Below are positions 2,854 through 32,794 of a stretch of DNA of 64,000 nt, in pieces. Location: NCBI RefSeq assembly GCF_900172225.1, contig NZ_FWFO01000001.1:2356001-2420000 (forward strand), in the 5' to 3' direction. Position 1 is the first letter of the stretch; each line of letters starts with the position of its first letter. The translations under genes were made by a program, and so were the position numbers. The stretch comes from Falsiruegeria litorea R37. GTDB taxonomy: Bacteria; Pseudomonadota; Alphaproteobacteria; Rhodobacterales; Rhodobacteraceae. The notes beneath the pieces were generated by a model that was given only the letters and a program-made list of their open reading frames with translations, was not told where the DNA came from and did not search any database.

Positions 2854-3540
2854 CTAGGCTTGCACCAAGTCTGCCCAGATCGGCAGATGGTCAGAAGCAA
2901 TATTCGCCGGACGATCCGAGTGCACGCCGTGGCCGTTGGCGTTCAGGCCGGGACCTAGCGCGATACGATCCAGAGGTCCCAACGGTTGCGGCGAGGGAAA
3001 GCTGGGCAGCGGCGGCAGGAACCGCATTTTGGGTGCCAGGTGGTCCAGCACTGGCTGGCGCGACCATTCGTTGAAATCCCCGGCCCAGACGGTAGGCATT
3101 TCGGGCAGATTCTGAATATGGCGGCTGATGTGCATCACCTGCTGCTGGCGCGAATGGGATAATAGCCCCAGATGCGCCCCCACCACGCGCAGCGGACCGA
3201 TGGGCGTGTCAAAGTTGACCCAGACGGCCCCGCGGGGCTCCATCCCTGGCAGCGCCATTTGCCCCGTCTCCAGCTCACGCAGCCCCTCACCTCGCCAGAT
3301 CACCGCATTGCCATGCCAGCCCAGACTACCTGCGCCGCCGAGGTCGACAATGTTCCACCCGGCCTCGTCCAGCACAAAATGCGGCAGGGCCGCAGGGCGT
3401 GGCGGCAGGCGCTTGTCAGCTTCTTGCAGCACCACAATCTGCGCCCCGATCCGATCCAGCACCTGCAGGATTCGGCGTGGCAGGCGACGAAAGTCGAGGC
3501 CCACACATTTCTGGATATTGTAGCTGGCCAGTCGAAGCAT
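2854..3540 (-). CDS. Endonuclease/exonuclease/phosphatase (EEP) family protein
   Basis: About 228 residues from the chosen ATG at 3540, where the EEP fold begins (MLRLASYNIQK). A longer frame to 3663 would overlap the divergent transporter's leader. EEP signatures are in order: SYNIQK near the N-terminus, the metal-binding Glu in VLQEADK, a histidine in VGAHLGLLSH, the catalytic GDFNEW and the terminal SDHLPIWADL (Asp-His pair). These residues coordinate Mg2+ for phosphodiester or phosphomonoester hydrolysis in enzymes such as exonuclease III, sphingomyelinases and inositol phosphatases. It lacks a signal peptide, so it is probably cytoplasmic. The substrate cannot be told. It is distinct from the xth gene at 32.8 kb. 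Confidence 0.85.
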   Translation of the reverse strand: MLRLASYNIQKCVGLDFRRLPRRILQVLDRIGAQIVVLQEADKRLPPRPAALPHFVLDEAGWNIVDLGGAGSLGWHGNAVIWRGEGLRELETGQMALPGMEPRGAVWVNFDTPIGPLRVVGAHLGLLSHSRQQQVMHISRHIQNLPEMPTVWAGDFNEWSRQPVLDHLAPKMRFLPPLPSFPSPQPLGPLDRIALGPGLNANGHGVHSDRPANIASDHLPIWADLVQA

Positions 3541-3676
3541 TGAGGTTTGTCCAAAATCGAATTGAGCTTCAATCTGGGGGATGTTGCTGGATAGGTCCAA
3601 GGGACGCAAGGTCTCACCCCTTTTGTGCCCCTTGAAACCTGTTGACATAACAACACATTGCACATCCTGTGGGCAT

Positions 3677-4552
3677 ATGGATCAAAAACGCCCCATAGAC
3701 GCCACTGGTGCCGCCGCGCTGATCGGGATTGCCCTGCTACTTGCCTTCAACCAAGTGGTGATCAAGGTCACCGGCACCGGCTTTGGCCCGGTGTTTCAGG
3801 CTGGTCTCCGCTCGGCTATTGCCTTGGCTTTTCTGTTGGCATGGATGTGGTTTTTTCGAAAACGGATCGAGCTGCCGCGAACGGCCCTATTGGGCGGGCT
3901 TTTGACGGGGCTGCTGTTCACGGTCGAGTTCATCTGCCTCTATTCCGCGCTGGACGTGACGACCGTGTCGCGCACGTCAATCCTGTTCTATTCCATGCCT
4001 GTGTGGCTCGCTCTGGCAGGCCATGTGTTTTTGCCTGGAGAGAAACTGAGCAGCCTCAAGGTTTGGGGTTTGGTGCTGGCTATGGGTGGGATCATCGTGG
4101 CCTTTGCCGAGCGAGATGGCGGACAGGTGAGCCTTGCGGGTGATCTGTATTCCCTGCTGGGCGCCATCTGCTGGGCCGGAATCGCGCTGGTGGTTCGGAT
4201 GACTGACCTGTCAAAAGCAAGCGCCGAAATGCAGCTGATGTGTCAGTTGGTGGTCTCGGCGCCCTTGCTGTTGTTGGCCGCGCCGCTTTTTGGAGAGATG
4301 GTGCGCGATGTACAGCCCCTTCATATTGCGGGACTTGCGTTTCAGGCCATCGGCGTTGTGGGATTGGGGTTCATGGCCTGGTTCCGTCTGCTGGCTATCT
4401 ATCAGGCCAGCGGTGTCGCCTCGTTCAGCTTTCTGTCACCAGTTCTTGCGGTTCTGTTGGGGTGGGCGTTGCTGGGCGAAGAGATCGGGTTGCAGATCTG
4501 GGCCGCTTTGGCGCTGGTGGCGGCCGGGATCTATCTGATCAATCGGTCTTGA
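3677..4552 (+). CDS. EamA-family (DMT) transporter
   Basis: About 291 residues from ATG 3677 (MDQKRPIDATG). The frame is open back to 3581, but the membrane protein starts here. It has ten predicted hydrophobic segments in two five-helix EamA halves. The halves begin near AALIGIALLLAFNQVVIK and near GDLYSLLGAICWAGIALVV, and the second ends in the usual LLGEEIGLQIWAALALVAAGI block. Drug/metabolite-transporter family members export small metabolites or amino acids across the inner membrane; the substrate here is unknown. It is transcribed divergently from the EEP gene with ~136 bases between starts. The ribosome binding site is weak, so the start is uncertain. Confidence 0.88.
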   Translation: MDQKRPIDATGAAALIGIALLLAFNQVVIKVTGTGFGPVFQAGLRSAIALAFLLAWMWFFRKRIELPRTALLGGLLTGLLFTVEFICLYSALDVTTVSRTSILFYSMPVWLALAGHVFLPGEKLSSLKVWGLVLAMGGIIVAFAERDGGQVSLAGDLYSLLGAICWAGIALVVRMTDLSKASAEMQLMCQLVVSAPLLLLAAPLFGEMVRDVQPLHIAGLAFQAIGVVGLGFMAWFRLLAIYQASGVASFSFLSPVLAVLLGWALLGEEIGLQIWAALALVAAGIYLINRS

Positions 4553-4652
4553 GGCAACGGTGCTCTCCCGCCCTCGCGGCATGCCCTGACGGGCCCTTGC
4601 TCCGTTGGGCCGGGCGCCAAGCCTTGCGGCTCGGCGCGGTTGCGACCCGGGT

Positions 4653-6071
4653 TCAAGTGCCGCAGAACGTGGCCTGGACAACCTCATTTTCCGCAGGCGG
4701 GCTTTGCAATTCTGCGTGATCGGGTTGGTCTGCATAGGGGGTGGTCAGGACCTGCTGCAACCTTTGGAACGGCGCATAGTCCCCGGCAACCGCTGCCTGA
4801 ATCATCTGTTCCACACGATGATTGCGCGGGATGAACGCCGGGTTGGTCGCAGCGATCAACGCCAGCGGGTCCGCCTCGCCCTTGGCCCGCGCCTGCCAGG
4901 TTGCGAGCCAGGTATCATAAGCCGCTGGATCCAGGAATTGATCGCGCCCCTCGGCCCGCCCCAACACACGGAAAGTATTGGTGAAATCCGCCTGGTTCTG
5001 CGCCATGCGCTGGAGCAGGTCCGCGATCAGCGCATCATCACCCTTTTGCGCGGTGTTCAATCCCAACTTGCAACGGAACTTTGCCAGCCACGCCTCTTGC
5101 AGCAGATCCGGCATCGCATGCACGATTTCGGTTGCTTCTTCAACTGCCGCCGCGCGGTCGGGCATCTGCTGGATCAGAGATGTCGCCAGCTGCGCCATAT
5201 TCCACACGGCAATATCGGGCTGGTTGGAATAGGCATAGCGCCCCATCCGGTCGATCGAGCTGTAGACCGTGTTGGGATGATAACTGTCCATGAAGGCGCA
5301 CGGCCCATAGTCGATGGTTTCCCCGGCAATCGAGCTGTTGTCGGTGTTCATCACCCCGTGAATGAAGCCGACGCCCATCCACCGGGCAATCAGCGCCACC
5401 TGAGCATCCCTTACCGCGCGCAATAGGTCCATCGGCCCCTCTGCATCGGGGTAGTGACGCGCAATGGCATAATCGGTGAGTTGCTTGAGGCTGCCCATCT
5501 CGCCTCGGGCAGCAAAGATTTGAAACGTGCCCACCCGCAGATGACTGGAGGCCACGCGTGCCAGAACCGCACCGGGCAAAGGCGCCTCGCGCAGAACTGT
5601 TTCGCCGGTCTCGACCGCAGCCAAGGCGCGCGTCGTGGGAATGCCAAGCGCATGCATCGCCTCGGACACCACATATTCGCGCAGCACCGGCCCTAGCCAG
5701 GCACGCCCGTCCCCTTGTCGTGAATAAGGCGTTCGGCCCGACCCTTTGAGCTGCAGGTCGCGCCGCAGCCCATCAACGCCCACTGTTTCGCCCAGCAACA
5801 CCGCGCGCCCGTCGCCAAGTTGCGGGTTGTAGTGGCCGAACTGATGGCCCGCATATAGCTGTGCGATCGGGTCTGCGCCCTTAGGCACCTGGTTACCGGC
5901 AAAAACCTGTGCCATCTCCTCGACCTCACCGGGGGTGATGCCCATCACCGCGGCCAGATCGGTATTGAATGCCACCAGCCTCGGCGCGCGCACCGGAACG
6001 GGCGCTTGTTTGGAATAAAACACGCCCGGCAGACGCGCATAAGAGTTGTCGAAGGGGATCATCAGTGTCAT
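4653..6071 (-). CDS. selO: SelO (YdiU/UPF0061) protein adenylyltransferase
   Basis: About 472 residues from ATG 6071 ([16 protein letters not shown]); an ATG at 6083 is also in frame. SelO is a pseudokinase that transfers AMP from ATP to proteins during redox stress. Family blocks are present: [67 protein letters not shown] and DYGPCAFMD. The protein ends in FCGT. This keeps the C-terminal cysteine that replaces selenocysteine in animal SelO and is thought to act in redox control. Its length fits the bacterial family. It is divergent from the cupin gene, with ~90 bases between starts. Confidence 0.95.
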
Positions 6072-6162
6072 GCGCCGCAACATAAGGGCGGATCACACGA
6101 TTGCCATAGCACAATCCGATTGGGCCGGGCATAGTCCCGAAAAACCAAGCCCCGAGGCCCCC

Positions 6163-6582
6163 ATGACCCCAGAGCAGATCATCAACCACCTGCAGCTCTC
6201 TCCCCACCCCGAAGGCGGCTGGTACCGTCAGACCTGGGTGGCCGAAAATGAAGGCCGCGCCACCGGCACCTGCATCTATTTCCTGCTGAAGGCGGGGGAA
6301 AGCAGCCATTGGCACCGGGTCGATGCGACCGAGATCTGGCTTTATCACGCGGGCGCGCCCCTGATCCTGTCGATGAGTGCGACAGATGACGGCCCGGCGC
6401 AGGATCACCTGCTGACCCCCGACTTGAACCAGGGTTCACCGCAACTGATCGTGCCCGAAGGCCACTGGCAGGCGGCACGCAGCACCGGCGACTACACGCT
6501 GGTCAGTTGCACCGTATCGCCCGGATTCCGATTCGAGGGGTTCGAATTGGCGGACAAGAGCTTTGACATCCCGCGCGCGTGA
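6163..6582 (+). CDS. Cupin_5 (DUF985) family protein
   Basis: 139 residues from ATG 6163, chosen because GAGG lies just upstream; the frame also runs back to 6046 into the selO start. It shows the DUF985 pattern: an N-terminal LQLSPHPEGGWYRQTW block, then IYFLLKAGESSHWHRVDATEIW with the cupin histidines, a VPEGHWQAAR block and the terminal VSPGFRFEGFEL. DUF985 cupins have a small beta-barrel fold and are mostly uncharacterised; some relatives bind or epimerise sugars. Gene context does not reveal the substrate. Confidence 0.88.
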   Translation: MTPEQIINHLQLSPHPEGGWYRQTWVAENEGRATGTCIYFLLKAGESSHWHRVDATEIWLYHAGAPLILSMSATDDGPAQDHLLTPDLNQGSPQLIVPEGHWQAARSTGDYTLVSCTVSPGFRFEGFELADKSFDIPRA

Positions 6583-6622
6583 ATTGCTTGCCAAAAGCGC
6601 CTCCCGCTGACAGGCTCGCCTC

Positions 6623-7513
6623 ATGGACCACCGCACTCTGATCGCCAAACTTCCGCCCGAGACAAAGGCGAAACTCACCAAACGCTCGAACCGGGCGGGG
6701 TTGATACATTTGACTCTGTACGGAATTGCCCTCGCGCTTTGCACGCTTGGCATTGGACTCCAGATACCGTTCTGGGGACTGCTGATCCTGCCTCAGGGCA
6801 TCCTCTTGGTGTTTCTCTTCACGCTCAGTCATGAATGCACCCACCAGACCCCGTTCAAAAGCCGCTGGCTGAACGAGGTCGTGGGACACGCCGTCGGTCT
6901 GCTGATCGCCCTGCCCTTTGTCTGGTTCCGCTATTTTCACCTGGCCCATCACAAATGGACCAACGACCCCGAGCGTGACCCGGAATTGGCGGGCAAACCA
7001 CGCCCGGGCAACTGGCCCGATATGCTGGTCTACCTCAGCGGCTGGTTCTATTGGACTGGGATGGCAAAAACGCTTGTCGCCAACGCAAAGGGAGAACTGG
7101 ACGCCCCCTACCTGCCGGAGCGCCAGCATGGGGCCATGCAACGCGAGGCGCGCGTTCTGCTGAGCCTCTATGCGCTTGGTGCCCTTAGCCTGATCTGGTC
7201 ACCGCTGCTCATTTGGGCTTGGCTCTTGCCGCTGATCGTGGGCCAGCCGGTTCTGCGGCTCTATCTGCTCGCGGAACACGGGCTCTGCCCGCCCGTGGCC
7301 AACATGCTCGAAAACTCACGCACCACCTTTACCAACCGGATTGTGCGGTTTCTAGCCTGGAACATGCCCTATCATGCGGAACACCACAGCTTTCCCAACG
7401 TGCCGTTCCACCAACTCCCGGCCTTTCACCGCTGGACCCAAGAGCACCTGAAATCCACCTCAAACGGCTACACCGAATTCACTGCAGACTATGCCCGCAG
7501 CCTAACGCGCTGA
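6623..7513 (+). CDS. Membrane fatty acid desaturase-type protein
   Basis: 296 residues. The three histidine clusters that bind the di-iron centre of membrane desaturases and hydroxylases are present: HECTH near residue 72, HLAHH near 112 and HAEHH near 252. Between them are two pairs of hydrophobic helices (GLLILPQGILLVFLFTL, VVGHAVGLLIALPFVWF, and LLIWAWLLPLIVG). The fold implies oxidation of an acyl chain or a carotenoid-like substrate at the inner membrane with O2. Which chain and position cannot be told. It starts 40 bases after the cupin gene on the same strand, so they may be co-transcribed. Confidence 0.9.
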   Translation: MDHRTLIAKLPPETKAKLTKRSNRAGLIHLTLYGIALALCTLGIGLQIPFWGLLILPQGILLVFLFTLSHECTHQTPFKSRWLNEVVGHAVGLLIALPFVWFRYFHLAHHKWTNDPERDPELAGKPRPGNWPDMLVYLSGWFYWTGMAKTLVANAKGELDAPYLPERQHGAMQREARVLLSLYALGALSLIWSPLLIWAWLLPLIVGQPVLRLYLLAEHGLCPPVANMLENSRTTFTNRIVRFLAWNMPYHAEHHSFPNVPFHQLPAFHRWTQEHLKSTSNGYTEFTADYARSLTR

Positions 7514-7544
7514 CCCTTCTTCTTGTTGGAAATACGGCGGGGGA

Positions 7545-7572
7545 GTCGCAAAGCGACGGGGGCAGAGCCCCC
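7545..7572. repeat. Two small adjacent hairpins
   Basis: GTCGC-AAA-GCGAC (7545-7557) is followed directly by GGGGGC-AGA-GCCCCC (7558-7572). They lie in the gap between the convergent desaturase and anmK genes. They are GC-rich without a clear T-tract and may act as a bidirectional transcript end or be an intergenic repeat unit. Confidence 0.5.
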
Positions 7573-7588
7573 TGACCTGCTATCCAAC

Positions 7589-8692
7589 TTACGGAACACT
7601 GACGATCCCGCCACCAACCAAGGCGCCAACGCCTGTGGTGCCGGGGCATGAGGTCGGCATACCCCGCGTCACCCGGACCGCGAGATAGGCAAAGGCCTGC
7701 GCCTCGAGCATGTCGCCGTCCAAACCCACGGCCTCGACCGGTTCAACCGGGCAATCGAGCGAGACGCGCAGCATCTCCATCAGCACGGGATTGTGACGGC
7801 CACCGCCAGTGACCAGTACGCGGGTGGGAGGTTTGGGGCAATGCTCCATCCCCTGAACCACACCAGCGGCGCACATGCCGGTCAGCGTGGCCACGGCGTC
7901 GGCATCTCCCAGCTCGGCCACCAAACCAATCATTTCGGCAAAATCGTTCCTGTCCAATGACTTCGGCGGCATTCTTGAAAAGTATGGCTCTGCCAGAAAG
8001 AGCTCCAAGGCACCGGTTTCAACTTCGCCGCCCGCAGCAATGGCGCCGTCCTTGTCCATCGGCAATCCAAGGCGCGCCTGCACCAGATCGTTGATCGGCG
8101 CATTCGCCGGGCCGGTGTCAAACGCCAGCAAGGCGCCGGACTGTTCCGGTTTATCAAAGGAAGGATCGACATAGGTCAGGTTGCCCACCCCGCCAAGGTT
8201 GAGGAAACACAGGGGCGCCTCAGCCCCAATCCATTTGGCACAGGCAAAGTGAAAGAACGGCGCCAGCGGTGCGCCCTCGCCGCCCATTGCAACATCATCG
8301 GACCGGAAATCCCAGACCACCGGGCGGTTCAACGCCTGCGCCAGCTCTGCCCCGTTGCCAACCTGCAAGGTTCGGCGTCGTTGCGGGTCATGCGCCAGGG
8401 TCTGACCGTGAAAGCCCACAAGCTCGACCTCTTTGAACCCAGACAGAGCCTTAGCATGTGCCTGTATCACCAACTCTGCGGCCGCATCGACTGCGTCACC
8501 GGTCCACTGTCCCAGACCGGCCCTCAACACCTCACGCTGTTCAGGGGTGTAGCCCTGATAACCGCTTGGCCCGAACTCGAAGATACGCGATCCATCGGTC
8601 TGGACCACAGCCGCATCCACCCCATCGAGTGAGGTGCCCGACATCGCCCCCAAGGCCCGGATCGGCCCGTCTTCTCTGATGGCCCTGCTCAT
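7589..8692 (-). CDS. anmK: Anhydro-N-acetylmuramic acid kinase
   Basis: 367 residues, full family length. AnmK phosphorylates and opens 1,6-anhydro-MurNAc released from peptidoglycan to give MurNAc-6-P for recycling. The N-terminal phosphate loop reads [14 protein letters not shown] (residues ~16-29), with the family blocks [49 protein letters not shown] and VTGGGRHNP. It pairs functionally with nagZ at 23.6 kb, which produces anhydro-MurNAc peptides. It runs divergently from tyrS with 107 bases between starts. Confidence 0.96.
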
Positions 8693-8799
8693 GGCCTAAT
8701 CCTTTGTTGTCCCACCCCGCAAAAACAAACGGAAAATGGTTTCCCTCTCGTGCCTTTGCGCTCTATACACTGCCCCGCAACACAAACCCGAGGCAAGAC

Positions 8800-10047
8800 A
8801 TGACCTACCATCCCAAATCGGATTTCATCGCTGTGATGATCGAGCGCGGTTTTTTGGCTGACTGCACCGATTATCAGGGCCTTGATGAGGCACTGATCAA
8901 GGGTGTGCAACCGGGTTATATCGGCTTTGATGCGACGGCCAAGTCGTTGCATGTGGGCTCGCTCATCCAGATCATGATGCTGCGGTGGCTGCAAAAGACC
9001 GGCCACAAGCCGATTACGCTGATGGGCGGCGGCACCACCAAGGTGGGCGACCCCTCGTTCCGGGCGGATGAACGCCCGCTGCTGACCGAAGCGCAGATCG
9101 ACGACAATATCGCCGGCATCAAAAAAGTGTTCTCGGCCTACATCGACTATGACAGCGGCGCCGAAAACGCGGCCCTGATGTTGAACAATGCGGAATGGCT
9201 GGACGATCTAAACTACCTTGAATTCCTGCGCGACATCGGGCGGCATTTCTCTGTCAACCGGATGTTGTCGTTTGAAAGCGTGAAATCCCGCCTGGATCGT
9301 GAGCAATCGCTGTCGTTCCTGGAATTCAACTACATGATCCTACAGGCCTATGACTTCATGGAGCTGCATCGTCGCTATGGCTGTGTGCTGCAGATGGGCG
9401 GCTCGGATCAATGGGGTAACATCGTAAACGGCATCGACCTGACCCGTCGCACCATCGAGGGTGAGGTATTTGGCCTGACTTCTCCGCTGCTGACGACCAG
9501 CGACGGCAAGAAGATGGGTAAGTCACAAGACGGCGCGGTCTGGCTGAACGCAGACATGCGTAGCCCGTATGAATTCTGGCAGTTCTGGCGCAACACCACG
9601 GATGCCGACGTGGGCCGGTTCCTCAAGCTCTACACCGAAATGCCGGTGGACGAATGCGAACGTCTGGGGGCATTGGCCGGATCCGAGATCAACGATGCCA
9701 AAGTCATCCTGGCAAACGAAGTGACCACACTGTGTCACGGCGCCGATGCGGCAGCTGCGGCAGCAGCCACAGCCCGCGAAGTGTTCGAAAATGGAGGTGT
9801 TGGCGACGATCTTCCAACGCTGACCTTAGAGATTGGTGATCTGCCAGTGTCCATCGTGCAGTTGATTGTTAAATCGGGTCTGGCCAAATCCGGCAAGGAA
9901 GCCAAACGCTTGATCGCCGAAAACGGCGCCAAGCTGGATGATGCCCCGTTGACTGATGGTGGTTTGATGATCGACGCAGGCGCTTTGTCCTCCCCCATCA
10001 AACTGAGCGCAGGCAAAAAACGCCACGCGCTGGTGCAACTGAGCTAA
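8800..10047 (+). CDS. tyrS: Tyrosyl-tRNA synthetase
   Basis: 415 residues from ATG 8800 (MTYHPKSDF); the frame extends back to 8704, but homologous sequence starts here. This class I synthetase charges tRNA-Tyr. The HIGH-type signature is HVGS at residue ~51 and the KMSKS-type loop is KMGKS at ~238-242. The tyrosine pocket block GGSDQWGNI is intact. The C-terminal ~65 residues form an S4-like RNA-binding domain ([20 protein letters not shown]). A pair of palindromic hairpins follows at 10084. Confidence 0.97.
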
Positions 10048-29767: not shown

Positions 29768-29791
29768 AACAGATAATTACGGATCTGTTTT
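29766..29791. terminator. Bidirectional hairpin holding both stop codons
   Basis: AAAACAGAT (29766-29774) pairs with ATCTGTTTT (29783-29791) around an 8-base loop. The erpA TAA overlaps the left arm and the opposing transporter's stop (29777-29779) is in the loop, so it can end both convergent transcripts. Confidence 0.7.
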
Positions 29792-30676
29792 AAAGTTACG
29801 AACAAAGGTATCCTCTGTGTGTTCCGGGGCAAACTGCTCCCACACCAGATAGAGGCCCGAGGCCATGACAATGGCCACGCCCAGAAGGGTTGCGGTTGTC
29901 GGCAATTCGCCAAAGAACACCGCGCCCAGAATCACCATCCAGACAAATTGCAGGTTCATCAGCGGCGTGACCACATAGACCGCAAGGTTACGCAGCGACA
30001 GGACCAGAACCCAGCGGGCCGAAAACAGCACGGCGGCGTAGACGACAACCCATGCCAGATCAGAAAGCGGCATCGGCACCCAGACAAAGGGCAGCGCCGC
30101 CCCCATCGCAACAAAAAGTGCCAGGTTCGGATAGAACACCTGCGCCAGCACGTTCGACTCATGTCGCCCGATGTAGCGCGACATCACGATCGAAAGCGTT
30201 CCGAACACGGCCGCGCCCAGGCCAAACAGATGGCCGTTTGTGATCGCCTGCAGACCTCCGGGGAATAGGCTGAGCACCCCGACAAACCCCGCGGTCAACG
30301 CAAACCACGCTGAAGGGCGCACTTGCTCGCGCAGGATCAGGCCAGACATCAGCCCCGACAACAGCGGCATCAACCCGATGAACAGAAAGACATCGGCCAG
30401 TGGCAGTGCCCCAAAGGCATTGAAAAAACAAACCGCTGCCAGCACCGTGGCCCCTGACCGCACCGCCATGGCCCAAGGGCTGCGGGTACGCAGACCCTGT
30501 TGCTGCGACGGCAAGCGATCCACCAACAGGCTGAGCGCCACAACAATCAGCCCGGACAGGCAAAAGAGTTGCGGAGCAGCGTAGCCGCCCGCAATCAGTT
30601 TGGTGATCGCGTCGGCGGATGAAATCAGAATGGTGTATAGCGCGACCAGAGCCGCGCCAATCAGTGAGGCCTTCAT
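29777..30676 (-). CDS. EamA-family (DMT) transporter, coupled to the unknown 357-residue gene
   Basis: 299 residues, ten hydrophobic segments in two EamA halves (LIGAALVALYTILISSADAITKLI at the start; LFGLGAAVFGTLSIVMSRYIG begins the second). The ATG overlaps the upstream stop (ATGA at 30673-30676), so it is translationally coupled to the 357-residue gene. EamA transporters typically export small molecules across the inner membrane. Its placement behind the FSSGS repeat protein and the unknown protein suggests, but does not show, that it moves something made by this locus. Confidence 0.88.
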   Translation of the reverse strand: MKASLIGAALVALYTILISSADAITKLIAGGYAAPQLFCLSGLIVVALSLLVDRLPSQQQGLRTRSPWAMAVRSGATVLAAVCFFNAFGALPLADVFLFIGLMPLLSGLMSGLILREQVRPSAWFALTAGFVGVLSLFPGGLQAITNGHLFGLGAAVFGTLSIVMSRYIGRHESNVLAQVFYPNLALFVAMGAALPFVWVPMPLSDLAWVVVYAAVLFSARWVLVLSLRNLAVYVVTPLMNLQFVWMVILGAVFFGELPTTATLLGVAIVMASGLYLVWEQFAPEHTEDTFVRNFKTDP

Positions 30677-31746
30677 AGGGTAACCCCACGCAAACCCGTT
30701 CGGGAGAAGGCGTTGAAAAAGCTTTCGAATTTGTCAGTGCTCTCTTCAGCCTCGGCCAGGATGTCATGACCTATCTCGCTCAGAGAACGCTCCACCCGCA
30801 AGCGCATCACACTCCAATCGTCGCTGCGGCTGTCCTCGAGCTGGAACAGGCATTCCGACATGTCCCGCAGCGGTCCCGGCCAGTGGGTGGCGCGATGAAA
30901 GCTCATCCGAGTGTCGCCCGCGGTATGTTTGAATACCTCTTGTCCGGACGTGGCCAGCAACCAGTTGCAGACGAAATAATCGTGGTAATCATCCTGCGGA
31001 TCTGCATGATCCTCGGTTTGGATGGCAAACCGCGTTACTTCACGTTCGATCCAACCCTCCCAAATCGGTGACGGCGTGGCCCCGGCATAGCGCAGGGCGA
31101 CACAGACCTCGGCCAAAAGATCGGCATTTTGATCGAGATAGGCCAATAGTCCGGCATACTCCAAGCTGGTGATCGCCTGTTCAGACACCTGAGGATCCCG
31201 GCGGCCGTATTCGCTCAGATAAAACAGGATGTGGGTCAGTTCATACGCTGCCTTCTTATTGGGCAGCGCAAAAGTTTCAGAACGGTTAACAAAGGCGTGC
31301 AGACGTTCGGTCAGACCGTCATCAGATCCGCTGTCCACCCCACGCCGCGATAACAAACGCCGCGCCTCGGCGCGTTGCAAGTCCGACAATTCAGCCTGGG
31401 CCAGCCCCTCGCGGGCGATCCAATGACACAGGGCCTCTCCCTTGGTGCCGCGCATCCCCAGATCTTCTAGATCGAGGCAGATCGACAGAAGAAAACGATA
31501 GTATTGAGGGAAAAACCCCAGCCGCTGTTCGATCCGGTCATAGAACCCCTGATGCGGGGTCAGGGCGTCATCGGTCAGGGACAAACCGGTGCATTCCAGT
31601 ATATTCAGCAGCTCTGCGTTCTCTTTCAGCCAGAACACATCGTCGCCGAACCTCCGGTGGCGGGCGAACCCGGCCACCAGATTGGCATTGCGCACTTTCG
31701 GGTCCAGACGTTGAACAGGCGCGTTCAGGTGGATCACATTTGTCAT
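30673..31746 (-). CDS. Unrecognised 357-residue protein of the FSSGS-repeat locus
   Basis: The ATG at 31746 follows GGAG. The protein is soluble and mostly helical, with acidic/aromatic blocks such as FPQYYRFLLSICLDLEDLGMRG (residues ~76-97), AAYELTHILFYLSEYGRRDP (~165-185) and YVCNWL-type segment DYHDYFVCNWLLATSGQEVF. There is no signal peptide, Walker motif, radical-SAM cysteine motif, HExxH or SAM loop. I do not recognise a named enzyme family; it looks like the uncharacterised Rhodobacterales type. It follows the repeat gene by 72 bases and overlaps the transporter gene by 4. Confidence 0.75.
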   Translation of the reverse strand: MTNVIHLNAPVQRLDPKVRNANLVAGFARHRRFGDDVFWLKENAELLNILECTGLSLTDDALTPHQGFYDRIEQRLGFFPQYYRFLLSICLDLEDLGMRGTKGEALCHWIAREGLAQAELSDLQRAEARRLLSRRGVDSGSDDGLTERLHAFVNRSETFALPNKKAAYELTHILFYLSEYGRRDPQVSEQAITSLEYAGLLAYLDQNADLLAEVCVALRYAGATPSPIWEGWIEREVTRFAIQTEDHADPQDDYHDYFVCNWLLATSGQEVFKHTAGDTRMSFHRATHWPGPLRDMSECLFQLEDSRSDDWSVMRLRVERSLSEIGHDILAEAEESTDKFESFFNAFSRTGLRGVTL

Positions 31747-31818
31747 GGGGTGGTCTCCGTTTCAAATGGCGTTACCTGAACGCCCCTGTTTCAACTTCTA
31801 AGGTACGTGCGCGTCAGA

Positions 31819-32424
31819 TCAGCTGCCCGACGAGAACATGTGGGTGCCGTCGCCCGCGGTGGTGTCGGCCTTGGCAACCGGAGCCGAGCCTGAGGAGAAC
31901 ATCTGCGTGCCTTCGCCTGCGGTGGCATCTGCGCTGGCCGATGGCGCAGAGCCGGACGAGAAAATCTGTGTGCCTTCACCCGTGGTCGCATCGGCACTGG
32001 CGGCAGGGGCCGAACCCGACGAAAACATCTGCGTCCCCTCACCGGTGGTCGCGTCCGCGCTTGCCGACGGGGCAGAACCGGACGAGAACATCTGCGTGCC
32101 TTCACCAGTGATCACATCTGCTGTGGCTGCAGGGGCCGAACCCGACGAGAACATTTGCACCAGGTCACCAGCTGTGGCAGAGGTGGTTACAGGCGCGGAG
32201 CCCGACGAGAACATCTCGACCGCGTCGCCTGTGATGGCCTCGGTGGTCAGGGTGGGCGCAGAACCGGACGAGAACATTTCGGTCGCGTCACCGCCAAATG
32301 CATCGGTGGTCATTGTGGGGGCAGAGCCGGACGAAAACATGGCAGTGCCCTCGCCATCAAACAGGCTGTTACGGCCAGTGATCAGAGCTTCGGTAGTTGC
32401 GGTGATCTTGTGCTGAGCAGACAT
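31819..32424 (-). CDS. FSSGS-repeat protein, 201 residues
   Basis: The ATG at 32424 follows GAGGAA at 7 bases. A 28-residue leader (starting MSAQHKITATTEALITGRNS) is followed by nine copies of (M/I)FSSGS, at residues 29, 50, 71, 91, 112, 133, 154, 175 and 196. Copies 1-8 continue with AP plus a 12-13 residue Thr/Ala/Gly/Asp-rich spacer; unit 3 is 20 residues and the others 21. The protein stops exactly after the ninth FSSGS. Spacers 4-8 are near copies (ADATTGEGTQ type), while 1-2 are diverged. There is no signal peptide or cysteine. It is followed by the unknown 357-residue gene and the transporter. No known family is recognised; a multi-core modified-peptide precursor, a scaffold or a low-complexity protein are all possible. 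Confidence 0.85.
   Translation of the reverse strand: MSAQHKITATTEALITGRNSLFDGEGTAMFSSGSAPTMTTDAFGGDATEMFSSGSAPTLTTEAITGDAVEMFSSGSAPVTTSATAGDLVQMFSSGSAPAATADVITGEGTQMFSSGSAPSASADATTGEGTQMFSSGSAPAASADATTGEGTQIFSSGSAPSASADATAGEGTQMFSSGSAPVAKADTTAGDGTHMFSSGS
31822..32340 (-). repeat. Tandem 63-base coding repeats of the FSSGS gene
   Basis: Eight units of ~63 bases (one of 60) plus a final partial unit encode the FSSGSAP periods. The first unit begins at the codon for residue 29 and the partial one ends at the gene's last codon. Units 4-8 are most similar, pointing to recent tandem duplication at the 3' end of the gene. Confidence 0.85.
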
Positions 32425-32794
32425 CGTAAGTTCCTCATTTTGCGAAGTTGAATGCCCTTTCACGCTTGCAGCTTAACCGGGAGTCTCAAACTGGTTTTTC
32501 AATCTGAGGCTGTGAGTAACAAAAGTTATCCACATTAAGAAAATTGGGCAGAATTATGGCAAAATTGGACTCTTGATTTTTCCGACATCGAACACAAAAT
32601 CTTATCCACAGGCCTGATTTTGATGAGTTTTTATCACTTTCTACCCATGATTGAATTCGAATCACATAACACATTGGCCACATTTCCGCCCCATTCCGAC
32701 CGAATCTCCCAACCCGATTCCCCCAAAATCCAACGCTTGCCCTCCCCCCCCTACATCGGCGATAGATCAAACCGCAGTCAGCCGGAGATCGCCC
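32425..32794. promoter_or_regulatory. AT-rich divergent spacer with two perfect DnaA boxes
   Basis: This 370-base spacer lies between the FSSGS gene (minus) and xth (plus). It is visibly AT-richer than its neighbours, mainly at 32500-32660. The 9-mer TTATCCACA occurs perfectly at 32526-32534 and 32602-32610, same orientation, 76 bases apart. Both divergent starts have upstream AT-rich promoter space here. The rest has no ORF I support. Confidence 0.6.

Follow-up and report, generated by a model that had tools for sequence, protein, structure and literature searches.

Marine roseobacters carry an undescribed gene pair that consists of a protein containing a five-residue peptide in many copies and an enzyme of the Pfam family DUF6902. 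We read the pair, with a probability of roughly 0.57, as a multi-core RiPP-like system that yields short peptides and in which each core has its backbone altered by DUF6902, most probably through epimerization of one residue. Literature searches on roseobacter RiPP repeats and multicore epimerases returned nothing describing an array–DUF6902 system among the matches listed, no paper was found for DUF6902, and the core strings led, among the matches listed, to skin-graft abbreviations.

The locus

The three genes lie on the minus strand of the window, i.e., the whole stretch of 64,000 nucleotides that was analyzed. They encode a 201-residue multi-core precursor with nine FSSGS cores (31819–32424), a 357-residue DUF6902 protein as the putative core-modifying enzyme (30673–31746), and an EamA transporter as an optional partner (29777–30676), the latter joined to the 357-residue gene by an ATGA overlap. 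The gene order, overlap, and common strand given in the initial annotation agree with these coordinates. The precursor begins with a 28-residue leader (32341–32424) ahead of the first MFSSGS. Cores 1 to 9 follow, likewise on the minus strand, at 32323–32337, 32260–32274, 32197–32211, 32137–32151, 32074–32088, 32011–32025, 31948–31962, 31885–31899, and 31822–31836, the ninth forming the protein end. Successive FSSGS motifs are spaced 21, 21, 20, 21, 21, 21, 21, and 21 residues apart; the preceding residue is methionine in eight of the nine and isoleucine in one (core 7), and AP follows the core in eight of nine. On recounting, the nine (M/I)FSSGS(AP) units, their spacing of 20–21 residues, the leader length, and the end at the ninth core all stood as first annotated. 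When the residues of the array protein were shuffled 2000 times, FSSGS arose 0.0095 times on average and at most once. A degenerate DNA search of the organism's own genome for the core pattern hit 130 places, and the array was the only cluster of its kind among the matches listed.

Comparison of the window precursor with Pfam, NCBIfam, PADLOC, and PHROGs yielded nothing convincing. Among six relatives' arrays searched against Pfam, that of L073 scored above the cut-offs of DUF7372 and OGFr_III and that of L081 matched DUF4245 weakly; these identities were rejected as sums over repeats, since no single stretch passes alone. A candidate RNA hairpin between the array and enzyme genes was likewise discarded (z-score 1.40; 188 of 200 shuffles folded equally well).

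By Pfam, the genes on either side of the locus are ordinary. They encode an iron-sulphur biosynthesis protein, an HD phosphohydrolase, an arginyl-tRNA synthetase, and an exonuclease/endonuclease-phosphatase protein, which we take to be erpA, dgt, argS, and xthA, as well as an FAD-binding protein, DksA, and an AAA ATPase; one small flank gene has no Pfam family. Pfam detected neither a protease nor a RiPP recognition domain in the three genes. The leader peptidase and asparagine-synthetase-like cyclase of lasso peptide loci were absent by Pfam from the three genes and eight neighbors, and the locus was not assigned to that class.

The transporter, which had been presented as a coupled exporter, is a frequent yet dispensable partner found in 66 of 80 loci. 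In 11 of the 14 loci lacking it, an erpA-like gene lies 10–125 nt downstream instead; L021 is truncated where its contig ends, and neither gene is present in L020 or L040. Small metabolites are the usual cargo of EamA transporters.

The DUF6902 enzyme family

The 357-residue protein, initially described as unrecognized, is a full-length member of DUF6902 (PF21843; E 2.1e-164, 547 bits against a cut-off of 27, positions 1–351 of 351) and is homologous to a second family, DUF6895, which it also matches in Pfam (E 9.8e-23). A profile–profile comparison of the two families aligned 147 columns with 94% probability (E 1.1e-7). W39, R84, E119, Y168, T171, H172, G181, D209, E213, Y254, and H255 are invariant in 109 of 109 DUF6902 rows and are shared by 6 or 7 of 7 DUF6895 rows, in an alignment from which L107 and L072 of the 110 loci were dropped for length; L107 keeps all conserved residues. 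The AlphaFold model, of high confidence (mean pLDDT 92.8), is helical except for two short strands. A fold search against solved structures gave no significant match, the first being complement C4ADG (probability 0.97, E 0.14), a fold that we take to be an alpha/alpha toroid, and solved structures matched by sequence only at E 0.35 and 0.37.

The literature on DUF6895 amounted to one find, a title in the reference list of PMC13352647 that names a DUF6895 epimerase modifying lasso peptides (ACS Catal. 2026). If that title is correct, the family to which DUF6902 is homologous, and with which it shares the conserved H, D, E, and YH, includes a lasso peptide epimerase, which makes DUF6902 a candidate peptide epimerase of the DUF6895 type. 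The two families also resemble each other in gene context: by eye, five of the seven DUF6895 genes examined (L112, L113, L121, L131, and L133) are preceded by a short ORF that combines a leader-like part with a short aromatic, core-like segment such as LVGPWFVL or GYVLAWDKYVLVV. The short ORF preceding the gene in L132 has a different end and its fit to the pattern is not clear, and L120 has no upstream ORF clearly fitting a leader–core pattern. The precursors differ in that those examined for DUF6895 carry one or two aromatic segments, whereas those of DUF6902 are long, near-identical arrays. As side observations, DUF6895 is fused to an APH-type kinase domain in L120 (571–3282), and in L122, the same locus as L112, DUF6895 is accompanied by an MFS transporter, an O-methyltransferase, a C39-like cysteine peptidase, and two short ORFs resembling precursors (3167–9573).

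Distribution and pairing of array and enzyme

Of 295 sampled Rhodobacteraceae genomes, 82 carry DUF6902; if our reading is true, this would be the reach of the enzyme of a new ribosomal peptide class. In a class-wide sample of 385, four matches were above cut-off, all in Rhodobacteraceae, and a fifth, weak match fell in another family (L126, 5724–6809, minus strand), where it is preceded by a short ORF that has a leader-like part and ends in an aromatic segment. Of 361 candidate stretches in genome_contigs, 343 proved to be DUF6902; the best 80 of these 343 bear titles mostly of Rhodobacteraceae or roseobacter genera, and the closest named relatives among them, with DUF6902 91–94% identical, are Tropicibacter and Falsiruegeria, to whose group the window probably belongs. 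No relative was found in viral_contigs or plasmids, so there is no sign of mobility there.

An array lies upstream of DUF6902 in all 110 loci of the first set (L002–L111), in which the array of L111 is partly masked, some loci begin at a contig edge, and some are the same place from two collections, leaving 90 distinct arrays with L111 excluded. An unbiased count is provided by the 82 family genomes, which comprise 30 loci of this set (L082–L111), 51 further loci, and G139, cut by a contig end and excluded. An array is present in 79 of these 81 readable loci, including 49 of the 51 further ones (that of L204, which lies at the edge of its contig, was identified by eye). In the converse comparison, none of 40 genomes without DUF6902, hand-picked from the upper part of a dgt-similarity list of the 213 such genomes sampled, has an array of at least three units at the syntenic place, a scan blind to shorter arrays and to other parts of the genome; a few ORFs flagged there resemble low-complexity frames. 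dgt and an erpA-like gene are present at 40 of 40 empty sites, and 33 of the 40 fetched stretches also contain xthA; EamA is found at none of the 40, and in L134 the xthA–erpA gap is about 60 bp. The initial annotation had proposed to check whether the three proteins co-occur; for array and DUF6902, a near-obligate pairing is well supported. A precursor with leader and cores beside a dedicated enzyme, the arrangement looked for in a RiPP locus, was found.

The two loci without an array, L207 and L224, are also the only losses of H172, a residue that 158 of the 160 aligned enzyme rows retain, with repeated loci counted. The L207 enzyme has lost Y168, T171, and D209 as well, and that of L224 nearly the whole conserved set; the chance that two random H172 losses among 81 loci would hit exactly these two is 1 in 3240. 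Both genes occupy the same site and are apparently decaying or repurposed, and comparing them with the other loci, as natural losses of function, gives a pointer to where the active site lies. Outside the 81 loci, L072 has a five-unit FTSSM array beside a DUF6902 gene that is split by a stop codon (5967–7074) and reads N in place of H255; either an array can persist without a working enzyme, or the sequence is locally faulty.

L072 bears on the idea of a DUF6902 without catalytic activity that serves as a binding partner or chaperone, with the array acting as a multivalent scaffold or decoy in the cytoplasm. The persistence of this array beside a broken enzyme gene would suit such a role, as would the lack of any product seen and a first fold match that, albeit not significant, is a complement fragment rather than an enzyme. 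The restriction of H172 loss to the two array-less loci argues against it, as do the peptidase, methyltransferase, and transporter genes in one DUF6895 locus and a core type that switches yet stays near-uniform (see below), and we consider a scaffold improbable.

Variety and selection of the cores

The 132 distinct arrays, with 49 loci assigned by hand, hold 915 units, 857 of them identical to the consensus of their own array, and 42 core types, including FSSGS, FTSGS, FTSGL, FTSWS, FTTSC, FPSGS, FASGS, MMCCS, LSPSC, and YIAGL. These natural variants could be used for probing enzyme specificity. The core is the exact protein end in 90 of 132 arrays; the FCSAS array of L009 runs on for nine residues past the last core. 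Across 90 arrays, unit identity is 0.86 within an array and 0.49 between arrays.

Between neighboring cores, 1250 changes are synonymous and 70 alter the amino acid (2915 codons); between neighboring spacers, the numbers are 325 and 1216 (2153 codons). These counts, like those of the units above, locate units by core similarity and are biased to identical cores. With units located by flank alone, the ratio of synonymous to amino-acid changes is 919:351 in 2515 codons for cores and 343:1165 in 2107 codons for spacers; of 593 flank-located units, 500 equal the consensus, 27 are one residue off, and 66 deviate more strongly, some of the latter probably being in the wrong register. The synonymous excess in cores indicates that their uniformity is kept by selection and not by recent copying alone, and purifying selection on the core residues is well supported.

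A tree of 88 enzymes requires at least 30 changes of core type. L005 and L006, whose enzymes are 94.8% identical, have FSSGS in six of six and FTSGS in seven of seven units, respectively, and the flanks of their first, second, and last units still match, which implies that the switch spread through the array either one unit at a time or by conversion. Mixed arrays exist, with FSTSC together with FSSGS in L025, L028, L032, and L034. The peptide is near-uniform within a genome and different between species, like a private chemical code, and the array-wide switching of this code would make the evolution of a peptide signal directly testable in bacteria.

A surface or storage repeat protein with unrelated neighbors had been held equally possible, and the low-complexity composition of the arrays, rich in Ser, Ala, and Thr, is what such a protein might show. 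Random association with neighboring genes would then be expected, and near-obligate pairing with DUF6902 is seen instead. A crude hydropathy test detected no signal-like stretch ahead of the first core in 89 of 90 arrays, the strongest selection falls on the core, and the core switches between species yet remains near-uniform. A storage or surface protein is, on these grounds, very unlikely. The multi-core RiPP-like reading of the initial annotation has gained from the same comparisons, namely the pairing in 79 of 81 loci, the lack of arrays in 40 genomes without the enzyme, and the purifying selection on cores; the exporter, in contrast to array and enzyme, is not obligatory.

Proposed function

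DUF6902 likely acts on the cores. The array protein would stay in the cytoplasm, since it is without a signal-like stretch, and DUF6902 would bind each unit, with the G-[DE]-x-[TV]-x-[ML] stretch ahead of the core as a possible contact. Its conserved H172, D209, E213, and H255 would then alter the core backbone, most likely by epimerizing one residue. A general peptidase, which the three genes do not encode, would cut out the units, and the short product would leave through EamA or, where this is missing, by another route; cleavage, export, and any signaling by the peptides are presumed steps. Epimerization is our best single guess for the chemistry because the DUF6895 relative is called an epimerase, in a title, and because the cores share no reactive side-chain group. 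YIAGL contains no Ser, Thr, or Cys, and with neither hydroxyl nor thiol in this core a change at a backbone carbon fits all cores, while chemistry on one type of side chain does not; the argument draws on a few divergent arrays. If this chemistry is right, DUF6902 could serve to introduce D-residues into short peptides. Several findings count against the reading: the array beside a broken enzyme gene in L072, the lack of a Pfam protease in the three genes and of a significant fold match, and the absence of EamA from 14 of 80 loci.

The same architecture might serve another reaction, with DUF6902 carrying out dehydration, heterocyclization, or crosslinking, or excising the units as a peptidase. 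In its favor, S, T, or C occupies core position 3 in 129 of the 132 arrays, and F occupies position 1 in 127; the conserved His, Asp, and Glu would suit a metal site or acid–base catalysis, and the three genes hold no other protease. YIAGL, however, offers neither a hydroxyl nor a thiol, FTNWC and LSPSC break position 3, MMCCS, MMSCS, CFSWS, and LSPSC break position 1, and the one title on the DUF6895 relative speaks of an epimerase. Such alternative chemistry is possible, if on the unlikely side.

Relation to known multi-copy and epimerized peptides

Fungal Kex2-processed repeat proteins, such as ustiloxin precursors and yeast alpha-factor, contain many copies of a short peptide per precursor, with very diverse repeats and some products acting as pheromones, as described in PMC7329392. 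DUF6902 arrays are alike in holding many copies in one precursor; they differ in that a secretion signal and Kex2 sites are found in the fungal proteins, whose partner enzymes belong to DUF3328, whereas the arrays are without a signal-like stretch and are partnered by DUF6902.

The lasso peptide epimerase MslH, reportedly from an enzyme family unrelated to DUF6902, offers a second comparison. Like the activity proposed for DUF6902, it gives a ribosomal peptide a D-residue, and according to PMC10406935 its substrate is the one C-terminal Trp of a lasso precursor, unlike a multi-core array.

Upstream elements

Two copies of a DnaA-box-like element, TGTGGATAA, which is identical in sequence to the DnaA box, lie upstream of the precursor on the minus strand, the nearer about 100 nt from its start (32526–32534) and the farther another 76 bp upstream (32602–32610). 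They are the two copies in the 64-kb window, against 0.11 expected. All 74 perfect copies in 76 loci lie at most 300 nt upstream of an array and none elsewhere; 44 of the 76 loci have at least one, and 32, including all 11 FTSGL arrays, have none. With one mismatch allowed, the element is present in 51 of 76 loci as compared with 35 of 760 random 300-nt pieces. Where two copies share a direction (26 loci), they are exactly 76 bp apart in 20, and in a second locus set the 76-bp result is 19 of 36. The element was not found near xthA at any of 33 empty sites, and the organism's own genome has 16 copies against 14 of a reversed control, so it is not enriched genome-wide.

A bolder reading is a bacterial counterpart of alpha-factor, a species-specific, multi-copy D-residue pheromone controlled by DnaA, or by another factor that recognizes its box, and tied to the replication state. 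We regard this as doubtful; were it true, a five-residue code would switch across a whole array as species diverge. A further element, TGCAAGCG, about 40 nt upstream of the precursor start (32463–32470, minus strand), is present in 32 of 86 upstream stretches, and the shorter TGCAAGC also occurs in 4 of 33 empty sites.
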